Part shown: piece by piece, positions 12,944-58,571 of the stretch
Layout: every line of letters begins with the position of its first letter
Position numbering within the stretch: the stretch's first letter is position 1
Source of the DNA: Flavobacteriales bacterium
GTDB taxonomy: Bacteria > Bacteroidota > Bacteroidia > Flavobacteriales_D > Sanyastnellaceae
Length of the DNA stretch: 64,000 nucleotides
Direction of reading: 5' to 3'
NCBI GenBank assembly: GCA_947488195.1
Contig: CANKYR010000001.1
Coordinates: forward strand, 1-64,000
Program-made: the position numbers and the translations under genes
Notes under the pieces: model-generated
What the model was told of the DNA's origin: nothing
The model's database searches: none
What the model saw: the letters and a program-made list of their open reading frames with translations, nothing else

Positions 12944-14149
12944 ATGGGATGTTCGAGTTGTGGAAATAATGATGGGAGCGTTCCTAACGGCTGTAAAAGC
13001 AATGGTAATTGCGGAACCTGCAGCACAGGGAAGAAGGAGGTTTTCGATTGGCTGTCAGGAGTTCCATTGGCAGACGGCTTAAAGCCGTTTGACGTGGTTG
13101 AGGCGCGTTTTAAAAATGGCCGCAAAGCCTTTTTTAGAAAAGGAAGTTTAGAGTTGTTTCAAGGTGATGTGGTGGCTGTTGAGGCTTCTACAGGATACGA
13201 TGTGGGAATTGTTTCTTTGGCGGGTGAGTTGGTTCGTGTTCAAATGAATCGTCGCGAAATCAAAGACAATTATGAGTTGAAACGCGTTCTTCGAAAAGCA
13301 GTACAATCAGACTTCGATATCTGGCAAGATGCTCGTCAGTTAGAAACAGGCACTATGATTCGTTCACGTGAAATTTCGCGCGAGTTGGGTCTTCAAATGA
13401 AAATTAGCGATGTGGAATATCAAGGCGATAAAACCCGCGCGATATTTTACTACACGGCCGATGACCGTGTAGATTTCCGTGAACTCATTCGCAAGTATGC
13501 TGAAGAGTTCAAGGTGCGCATTGAAATGCGCCAGATTGGACTTCGTCTTGAAGCTGGTCGTCTTGGCGGAATCGGCTCCTGCGGAAGAGAGCTTTGCTGC
13601 TCTACCTGGCTAACCGATTTCAGATCGGTATCTACCGGCGCAGCACGCTATCAGCAGCTTTCATTGAACCCAGGCAAACTAGCAGGGCAATGTGGAAAGC
13701 TGAAGTGTTGTTTGAATTACGAATTGGATCAATACGTTGAAGCCGTTCGTATGCTACCCCCAACACACGTGAAATTGAAACTTCCGAAAGGAATTGCAAC
13801 GCATTTTAAAACAGATATTTTCAAGCAAGTTATTTATTACACCATTGAAGGACAACACAGCGACGGGCCGTTTGCGCTTTCTGCAGATGTAGTAAAAGAC
13901 ATCATTGAAAAGAACAAGCGCGGTGAGGTGATAGGTGAAGTTCAGACATTTATTGAAGAGAAAGAGATTGTTGAAAGTGTTGAATTTGCAGAGGTAGTTG
14001 GACAAGATAGCCTAACGCGTTTCGATAATAAAAAGCGTAAGCCGACCAACAACAACCGCAATCGCAACAGCAAGCCTGGAGGAAATGCCAACAGACCTCC
14101 TCGCTTCAAAGGCAAGCCAAACAACCCGAATCAAGGTCCGAAAGAATGA
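12944..14149 (+). CDS. ricT: PSP1/RicT-family regulatory iron-sulfur subunit homolog
   Basis: GGIGSCGRELCCSTWL, CGKLKCCLNYE cysteine signature of PSP1 C-terminal domain. Confidence 0.88.
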   Translation: MGCSSCGNNDGSVPNGCKSNGNCGTCSTGKKEVFDWLSGVPLADGLKPFDVVEARFKNGRKAFFRKGSLELFQGDVVAVEASTGYDVGIVSLAGELVRVQMNRREIKDNYELKRVLRKAVQSDFDIWQDARQLETGTMIRSREISRELGLQMKISDVEYQGDKTRAIFYYTADDRVDFRELIRKYAEEFKVRIEMRQIGLRLEAGRLGGIGSCGRELCCSTWLTDFRSVSTGAARYQQLSLNPGKLAGQCGKLKCCLNYELDQYVEAVRMLPPTHVKLKLPKGIATHFKTDIFKQVIYYTIEGQHSDGPFALSADVVKDIIEKNKRGEVIGEVQTFIEEKEIVESVEFAEVVGQDSLTRFDNKKRKPTNNNRNRNSKPGGNANRPPRFKGKPNNPNQGPKE

Positions 14150-14610
14150 TGAGAATAGTTTTTTTTTTAAGTCTAACGCTTCTTCTCAGCTCATGCGGCG
14201 ATGATTTTGTTTATGAGAGTAACATGCCGGTTGAAGGCGGTGTTTGGGACAACAAGAAAGTAGCAAATTTTGAATTCGATATTCAGGACACGGTAAGTTT
14301 ACACGACTTTTTTATCGATGTCCGCAACGGTGAACAATACGAATTCAGCAATCTATACGTGTTTATTGAAATGGAATTCCCAAATGGAAAATTGGCGGTT
14401 GATACGTTGGAATGTCCAATGGCCGACGCTCAAGGAAATTGGTATGGGAAATCAGGATTAGGCGATTTATACGACAATCGAATTATTTACAAATCACGTA
14501 AGCAGTTTCCGCTTTCTGGACACTACAAAGTGTCAATCCATCAAGCCATGCGCGTGAATCCGGTTGAAGGAATTTATGATGTAGGATTTCGTTTAGCAAA
14601 GTCGAAGTAA
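14146..14610 (+). CDS. gldH: Gliding motility lipoprotein GldH
   Basis: Lipobox LLLSSCGDD, GldH-like sequence, downstream of ricT as commonly seen in Flavobacteriia. Confidence 0.82.
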   Translation: MMRIVFFLSLTLLLSSCGDDFVYESNMPVEGGVWDNKKVANFEFDIQDTVSLHDFFIDVRNGEQYEFSNLYVFIEMEFPNGKLAVDTLECPMADAQGNWYGKSGLGDLYDNRIIYKSRKQFPLSGHYKVSIHQAMRVNPVEGIYDVGFRLAKSK

Positions 14611-14682
14611 CCCCTTCGCGAAGCGACCTTGCGGAGCACCTTTGTAAAACAATCTTTGCAAAGCAATCTTGCTTCAGCATCT
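14611..14682. repeat. Tandem array of 12-14 nt micro-hairpin modules (locus 1)
   Basis: Minus-strand modules: TGC-TGAA-GCA-AGA, TTGC-TTT-GCAA-AGA, TTGT-TTT-ACAA-AGG, TGC-TCC-GCA-AGG, TCGC-TTC-GCGA-AGG; fills the convergent gap gldH/GT2. Confidence 0.8.
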
Positions 14683-14694
14683 AATAATCTCCGA

Positions 14695-15432
14695 TTATTT
14701 TGTGTTTTTGCGGCTCCAAATATTGTATTTCGCAATACACCAAAACGCGCGAACACCGTCTTTCCAGCCAATCTTTTTGCCCTCTTCGTAGGTGCGGCCG
14801 TAATATGAAATTCCAACTTCGTAAATACGAATGTTAGGAACTCTTGAAAGCTTTGCGGTGATTTCCGGTTCGAAACCGAAACGCTTTTCACACAACAATA
14901 AATTCTTTGCAATGTCTGCACGAATAAGTTTGTAGCACGTTTCCATATCTGTTAAATTCAGATTGGTAAAGGCGTTGCTGGCGAAGGTTAAAAGCTTGTT
15001 TCCGATGCTGTGCCAGAAGAACAGGATACGGTGAGGATTTCCTCCCATGAAACGAGAGCCGTAAACAACGTCTGCGCCGTCTTTAAAAACAGGCTTTAAC
15101 AAGTCGTTGTATTCATCAGGATCGTATTCCAAATCGGCGTCTTGAACTAAGATATAATCACCCGTTGCAATCTCAATAGCCTTGTGTAAAGCCGCCCCCT
15201 TTCCTTGATTGTAGGGCTGCGAGTAGAAGTTGAACGTTCGCTCAGGATGAGCAGCAATGTATGATTCAATGGCCTCAACAGTGTTGTCTGTGGAAGCATC
15301 GTTAACAATCACAATTTCCATTTCAATGTTGTTCATCAACTTAACGTCAGCAATTCGATCGAGAATTAAGTGAATAGTTCTTCCTTCGTTGTATGCTGGA
15401 ATAAGTATAGAAAGCTTTTTAAACTCGTGCAT
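14695..15432 (-). CDS. Glycosyltransferase family 2 (dolichol-phosphate mannosyltransferase-like)
   Basis: [43 protein letters not shown]. Confidence 0.92.
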
Positions 15433-53774: not shown

Positions 53775-53902
53775 TTGCTTTGCAAGGTCTTTCAGAAGGT
53801 CGCTACGCGAAGCGTCCTTGCAAAGCACCTTTCGTAGAACCTTGTCAATACACCTTCCGCAGGACCTTTCGTAGAACCTTGTGAACACACCTCTCGCAGA
53901 AT
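53775..53902. repeat. Tandem array of 12-13 nt micro-hairpin modules (locus 2)
   Basis: Seven contiguous modules at 53816-53901: CCTTGCAAAGCA, CCTTTCGTAGAA, CCTTGTCAATACA, CCTTCCGCAGGA, CCTTTCGTAGAA, CCTTGTGAACACA, CCTCTCGCAGAA; preceded by TTGCTTTGCAAGG, TCTTTCAGAAGG, TCGCTACGCGAAGCGT; convergent gap folA/mmcQ. Confidence 0.85.
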
Positions 53903-57830: not shown

Positions 57831-58571
57831 ATGAAACTAACACTGGAAAAAGACGGGCGACGCTATTCATTTCAAACCGAAAAAGGAATGGATCTTAGCA
57901 TCTCTATGAATCCAAAAGGTCCGCGCGCTTGGTACGTTGAACCTATGCGTATTGAGCCGGTTCGAACAGAACAGTTCTTGGGTTCTGTTGCAGAAGGTGG
58001 CGATGTGAATTTTCGCGATGTGTATTTCAATCCGCATGGACACGGCACTCACACCGAAAATGTTGTACATATAGTTGACACGGATTTTCCTGTGATAAAC
58101 AGTATTTCTTCATCTCATTTTTTTGCGAATCTAATTTCTGTTGAATTGAAAAATCAATCCAATGATTGGGTGGTGAGTGAAGAGAGTTTAGCGGGCTTTG
58201 ATTTAAATGTTGAAGCCCTTATTATTCGCACAAAACCGAATGATCATTCGAAAATACAAAGACAATATTCCGGAACGAATTTTCCATACTTAACAATCGG
58301 AGCTATGCAGCGTATTGTTGATGCGGGCGTTCAGCATTTGCTCATTGACTTGCCTAGCGTAGATCGCGAAGAGGACGGCGGGGCGCTTGTTGCGCATCAT
58401 TTATTTTGGAATGTTCCTGCTGAGCCAAACTTTCAGAAAACCATTACAGAGTTGATTTACGTTCCAAATGAAATTGCAGACGGAATTTATTTGTTGAATT
58501 TGCAAGTTTCGAATTTCGCTAACGACGCTGCTCCGAGTAGACCTATGCTTTTTGATCTAGAGGAAGAATAA
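57831..58571 (+). CDS. Cyclase-family protein (kynurenine formamidase-like)
   Basis: NPHGHGTHTENVVHIVD metal-binding region. Confidence 0.83.
   Translation: MKLTLEKDGRRYSFQTEKGMDLSISMNPKGPRAWYVEPMRIEPVRTEQFLGSVAEGGDVNFRDVYFNPHGHGTHTENVVHIVDTDFPVINSISSSHFFANLISVELKNQSNDWVVSEESLAGFDLNVEALIIRTKPNDHSKIQRQYSGTNFPYLTIGAMQRIVDAGVQHLLIDLPSVDREEDGGALVAHHLFWNVPAEPNFQKTITELIYVPNEIADGIYLLNLQVSNFANDAAPSRPMLFDLEEE

Follow-up and report, generated by a model that had tools for sequence, protein, structure and literature searches.

The 64,000-nt window analyzed here (contig CANKYR010000001.1 of a Flavobacteriales bacterium) carries a short gap between gldH and a convergent family 2 glycosyltransferase (GT2) gene, and this gap is filled by a phased row of six units in which a YCT linker directly precedes a perfect hairpin (Table 1). 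The first-pass annotation, reading the minus strand, had listed five dyads with AGR linkers, and all five are present. These modules are real, but several are longer than the usual unit of 12 bp with a 3-bp stem found genome-wide; stems at this locus measure 3, 4 and 7 bp. A hairpin at 14683-14699, previously described as weak, is in fact the sixth complete unit, in phase with the others and with a perfect stem of 7 bp, and it encloses the triplet that ends GT2 on the minus strand (stop codon at 14695-14697). This boundary unit is kept in genomes G004, G006 and G008 of the same genus, while the start of the array (14613-14638) is also kept in G002, G006 and JANQWV. The longest chain of units obtained by chance was two in 2000 shuffles of the segment and three in 60 shuffles of the window; six were never reached.

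Table 1. Coordinates, strands and sequences of the arrays, their neighbors and related features in the window.
Feature	Sequence	Position	Strand	Remarks
gldH (GldH lipoprotein, PF14109)		14146..14610	+	Upstream neighbor of array
Unipolar micro-hairpin array, six YCT-hairpin units		14613..14699	+	AGR linkers on minus strand
Array unit 1	CCT-TCGCGAAGCGA	14613-14626	+	
Array unit 2	CCT-TGCGGAGCA	14627-14638	+	
Units 1 and 2, putative core B remnant	CCT-TCGCGAAGCGA CCT-TGCGGAGCA	14613..14638	+	Compared with 53805-53830
Array unit 3	CCT-TTGTAAAACAA	14639-14652	+	
Array unit 4	TCT-TTGCAAAGCAA	14653-14666	+	
Array unit 5	TCT-TGCTTCAGCA	14667-14679	+	
Array unit 6 (boundary)	TCT-AATAATCTCCGATTATT = TCT-AATAATC-TCC-GATTATT	14680-14699	+	Same phase as units 1-5
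Family 2 glycosyltransferase (GT2, PF00535)		14695..15432	-	Convergent neighbor of array
Bipolar array behind dihydrofolate reductase gene, left half		53776..53799	-	AGR linkers on + strand
Core B centre	TCGCTACGCGAAGCGT	53800..53815	.	At 8 unrelated sites of genus
Bipolar array, right half		53816..53889	+	YCT linkers, six units
Edge of empty coding site, as read in gene	VELKNQSNDWVVSEE	58159..58182	.	Four related species: 72-180 bp in-frame arrays

A second array lies at 53.8 kb. As had been proposed from the sequence, the two arrays share material: CGCGAAGCG(A/T)CCTTGC...GCACC occurs in both and belongs to a sequence, here called core B, whose centre is the conserved 16-mer ACGCTTCGCGTAGCGA. 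Units 1 and 2 of the 14.6 kb array are probably a remnant of one core B half, as a comparison with 53805-53830 suggests. Core B is a frequent centre of bipolar arrays, the other frequent centre being a direct AGR|YCT junction. Within the genus, core B together with its neighbors was found at 8 sites and a further core, core A (...GGAAGGTCTTGCGAAGCACCTT...), at 9 sites; within a single genome such cores occur at up to four unrelated sites. Since cores recur at unrelated loci, sequence moves between loci. As to the hallmarks of MITEs (terminal inverted repeats and target-site duplication), some cores end in CTTGAAA, and inspection of the empty sites by eye showed no duplication.

The family was traced with a stem-blind pattern, YCTTN7A three times in succession, which specifies only the linkers and the closing T-A pair. 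It matched 100 times in the genome of origin (G000), where the reversed (mirror) pattern gave 0 matches, and 43-171 times in eight of nine genomes of the genus, the highest number belonging to G003 (96% complete). The ninth genome, G007 (95% complete), had none. Genomes of other genera gave 0-3 matches, about the number expected by chance, and the control pattern behaved likewise with few exceptions. After conservative merging, the genus holds at least 42 distinct array sites. Together with the cores common to unrelated loci, these counts strongly support the dispersed family that had been suggested on first reading. G007 is also the most divergent congener, with 83% identity in GT2 (94-99% in the others) and 63% in dihydrofolate reductase (DHFR; 92-99% in the others), so that a single gain after the G007 split is the simplest history. 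When one genome per species was searched across 84,980 species, only Flavobacteriales or Bacteroidetes MAGs matched the three-unit pattern; as far as can be judged from sample names, several of these are of lake origin. Three MAGs labelled Chryseobacterium gleum (CAMCUG, CAMCVP and CAMDFE) carry the family at orthologous sites and are probably mislabelled members of the array-carrying genus. Viral carriage was considered and rejected, as no IMG/VR contig matched the three-unit pattern. We found no description of hairpin arrays in Bacteroidetes in the open-access literature, and within that literature the family appears to be previously undescribed.

A typical unit spans 12 bp and consists of YCT followed by a 9-nt hairpin, T-b-b, a 3-nt loop and b'-b'-A, with a 3-bp stem. 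Among 623 linker-delimited units, 92.3% have a perfect 3-bp stem, compared to 21% when arms are shuffled between units. This pairing, together with the absence of matches to the reversed pattern, shows that module sharing does not come from base composition. In 64 distinct units, hand-picked to span perfect and imperfect types, the covariation score was 0.632 vs 0.159 after shuffling, 0 of 500 shuffles reached the observed value, and sliding the partner columns destroyed the score. The most frequent stems are TTC, TGC, TGT, TCC, TAC and TCG. In 1.10 Mb of the genome of origin, 22 chains of at least three units were counted against 0.2 per shuffle. That genome is a draft MAG (159 contigs, 85% complete), which could have favored an assembly artefact, but independent assemblies of other species carry the family at orthologous sites and neither shuffles nor the reversed pattern yield more than almost none. 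An explanation by chance, composition or artefact is thus already refuted.

Loops are strongly biased between strands. Read on the YCT strand, 400 of 575 perfect units have a GNA loop and 27 the mirror type TNC. The GNA:TNC ratio is 165:10 in coding arrays read in the purine sense, 55:5 in coding arrays read in the pyrimidine sense and 85:6 in noncoding arrays. Because the bias holds in coding and noncoding arrays, it is not a coding or codon effect. In single-stranded DNA, minihairpins of the type d(C-GNA-G), for example d(GCGAAGC), have unusual stability. Standard folding parameters do not bring this out: nearest-neighbor energies of single units were near zero for DNA and RNA on both strands and thus uninformative. 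A variant array with A-closing units (TCT-ACCGAAGGT and TCT-ACGGAACGT) lies between two minus-strand genes on contig C49 of G000 (L032:1509-1619), and other species of the genus retain it with a similar spacer.

Arrays are either unipolar or bipolar, the bipolar form being [hairpin-AGR]n centre [YCT-hairpin]m. Among 110 distinct arrays this polarity occurred 44 times and the simple opposite form 0 times, with three compound cases; among merged sites, at least 22 of 42 are bipolar in this one polarity and 0 in the opposite. In half of the genome of origin (1.10 Mb, including one 17-kb contig chosen for its matches), arrays occur in 2 of the 125 convergent gaps, in 5 of the 524 between tandem genes and in 0 of the 130 divergent ones; a further 6 lie inside genes. 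Per base, intergenic DNA is strongly preferred: its 46.5 kb hold 7 arrays, whereas the 945 kb of genes hold 6. Across the genus, 40 of 91 loci (about 44%) are inside open reading frames and 51 are intergenic, mostly between tandem genes, in a set partly fetched by pattern and therefore biased, with genes called by a simple ORF rule that leaves divergent and N-terminal cases uncertain. The preference for convergent gaps inferred from the first two arrays is not supported by these counts, in which in-ORF and tandem sites predominate. The accompanying observation that arrays directly follow stop codons does generalize: arrays commonly start no more than 15 bp away from a stop codon, which their linkers often supply (T+AGR = TAG). 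A general rule that the first hairpin arm is made by the stop codon was discarded; the counts were 5 of 36 vs 6 of 1207, but all five cases come from the ends of a single orthologous gene.

Such closeness to stop codons, along with sites kept in several species, would suit an RNA element under selection where genes end, acting as a terminator, as protection of mRNA 3' ends or as a two-way insulator. Such a role was implied by the first-pass suggestion to map transcript ends. We consider it improbable. Nearly half of the loci are inside ORFs and convergent gaps are not enriched; no intrinsic terminator, with its GC-rich stem and downstream T run, was found at 14500-14800; a search of Rfam at gathering score returned 0 matches in the window; RNA folding of arrays was only slightly below that of shuffled units; and array content varies, or arrays are missing, between close relatives.

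Arrays inside genes are translated in frame. Those read in the purine sense encode D-x-x-Q/K repeats (DASQ, DSSK, DVSQ), and some coding arrays use other frames (SCETSFAE, DLPEDLSKN). Units of the type TAC-NNN-GTA, which would place a stop in the D-x-x-Q frame, make up 0 of the 212 units in coding purine-sense arrays and 12 of the 141 in noncoding ones, and unit length is divisible by three in 97% of coding vs 77% of noncoding arrays. Hosts include an amino acid kinase family protein, a periplasmic binding protein and a GT2 protein, whose loop KQ(F/Y)LD|GVVTKFL holds an insert of one unit in G001 and about 20 or more in G006. GT2 homologs of other genera are without this insert. An AlphaFold model of a GT2 host protein was too poor for use (mean pLDDT 44). 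The single frame of purine-sense arrays and their freedom from stop-forming units could point to selection on the D-x-x-Q/K peptide as a soluble disordered linker, with noncoding copies as by-products. We consider this very unlikely, as more than half of the loci are noncoding, the peptide requires neither matched arms nor GNA loops, and the other frames listed above are also used. In another gene (G000:C19:11155-11334, listed as L199:11155-11334), a unit with a broken stem, TCTTGCTTGTCA, is repeated six times in frame (DDKQ). The sixfold repetition of this imperfect unit shows that tandem duplication can proceed without a perfect hairpin.

The content of orthologous sites varies between none and 25 units. 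In the gldH/GT2 gap the two stop codons touch in G005 (TAATTA) and are a few bases apart in G007, both sites being empty, while arrays are present in G000, G002, G004, G006, G008 and JANQWV and several of them differ in content. The gap between DHFR and YjbR is likewise empty with touching stops in G007; G005, G006 and CANGEF have arrays at the same place with different content and partly opposite polarity. The first reading had set dispersal against local duplication. Dispersal stands, but unit number also changes by local tandem duplication, which elsewhere is visible as alternating periods of 24 bp and 36 bp. Alignable orthologous arrays show 15 loop-only changes, 7 one-arm changes and two clean double-arm (compensatory) changes. 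With only two compensatory changes, homogenization of arms is inferred mainly from the standing pattern.

On balance we lean, with some reservation, towards the reading that the array belongs to a family of dispersed micro-palindromes, for the most part neutral or selfish, which is copied between sites, expanded by slippage and kept matched in its arms by hairpin-templated copying. A seed element around a short core (AGR|YCT or core B) would be copied to a new site, usually one directly after a stop codon or within a protein loop that tolerates it. Replication slippage would then alter unit number by one or a few units per step. When the YCT strand is single-stranded, units may fold into minihairpins with GNA loops, and a polymerase switching templates at such a hairpin could copy one arm from the other, so that the arms stay matched while their letters drift. 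Template switching is known both to generate hairpins and to repair them (PMC8794818). Purifying selection would restrict arrays in genes to multiples of 3 bp and to units free of in-frame stops, leaving length free outside genes. At 14.6 kb, the array probably has no function of its own beyond altering the gldH and GT2 3' ends; a required function is disfavored by the presence of arrays inside amino acid kinase and GT2 genes as well as in gaps, and by their absence from a congener. As a counterpoint to this neutral reading, the fact that several species retain the same sites could also reflect function.

No mutation event was seen directly, and no enzyme or intermediate for the spread of arrays was identified in the draft genus genomes, in which gene absence is weak evidence owing to their draft state (85% completeness in the genome of origin). 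A retron- or DGR-type reverse transcriptase was considered and rejected, none being present in the nine genomes. Loss of the hairpin nuclease SbcD showed no link to the arrays, as SbcD is absent in most relatives with and without them, and neither did loss of exonuclease VII, as XseA is present in most carriers. The large subunit of exonuclease VII was unmatched in G003 and G007 (both about 95% complete), whereas the other genomes have it except the incomplete G002. We tentatively put forward propagation driven by DNA structure, in which ultra-short single-stranded C-GNA-G minihairpins are the replicating unit, copy their own arms and use no dedicated transposase, so that arrays would grow at gene ends and in protein loops. 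If true, such self-copying minihairpins would be a class of repeats distinct from REPs, MITEs and microsatellites.

Whatever the route of spread, the family presents empty, single-unit and long states side by side, with matched arms changing repeatedly over few species. Such side-by-side states make it testable whether compensatory changes arise from selection on structure or from DNA copying alone, and covariation by itself is no proof of a functional RNA. The arrays also illustrate that protein genes such as those for the amino acid kinase and the glycosyltransferase absorb long in-frame repeats that differ between close relatives.

Among known systems, REP/BIME/REPIN sequences are similar in being high-copy short palindromes that form head-to-head pairs near gene 3' ends, with some copies providing stops and some within ORFs (PMC3733652). 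The bipolar arrays, in their single opposed (-|+) polarity, and the adjoining stops agree with this pairing and position. A mobile element of this kind, in which a transposase (Y1, RAYT-like, or another) reads YCTT plus a hairpin and mobilizes the core with its opposed halves in single-stranded form, would account for these shared traits, for the intragenic copies and for the presence of cores A and B at unrelated loci, yet we regard it as unlikely. Y1_Tnp (PF01797) was found in only four of nine genus genomes and is absent from G000, G008 and G003; its absence from array-rich G003, with 171 matches, led us to reject a Y1/RAYT transposase as the necessary mover. Reverse transcriptase (PF00078) was detected in 0 of nine genomes, and no target-site duplication was obvious by eye at the empty sites inspected. 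A REP unit measures 20-40 bp, carries a GTAG or CGTC tag and has a stem of 5-13 bp, and GTAG forms accompany RAYT genes, while the arrays have YCT/AGR linkers with no unpaired GTAG or CGTC tag, mostly 3-bp stems, 12-bp tandem units with varying matched arms, and several carriers missing a Y1 transposase. The arrays are therefore not REPs by the published definition, though their ecology is much alike.

Rickettsia palindromic elements (RPEs) are likewise palindromic and occur both between genes and as in-frame insertions in unrelated protein genes (PMC10969869). The arrays share in-frame insertion, in 40 of 91 loci and with a clean GT2 insert relative to other genera, but they are tandem 12-bp units of variable number and stems, in contrast to the RPE palindrome of about 150 bp with its conserved peptide. 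They are not RPEs, an Rfam family or intrinsic terminators. Template-switch (quasipalindrome) mutation is similar in that a single event generates a hairpin and brings its arms back into match (PMC8794818). It is a mutation mechanism, whereas the arrays are a repeat family. We know of no template-switch mutation that makes phased arrays with a fixed linker. The closest likeness is to the palindromes of Volvox organelles and the hairpin elements of sponge mitochondria, which are proliferating, lineage-specific small hairpins with loops of 3-5 nt (PMC2670323, PMC2800124). Volvox mtDNA palindromes measure 11-77 nt, and organellar hairpin repeats are thought to be selfish (PMC2670323, PMC2800124). 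These organellar hairpins differ in being noncoding and mostly longer, with no fixed linker or 12-bp tandem phase and with in-frame copies unreported. The arrays behave most like proliferating organellar hairpin repeats, but in a bacterial chromosome, with a 12-bp phase and in frame within genes.
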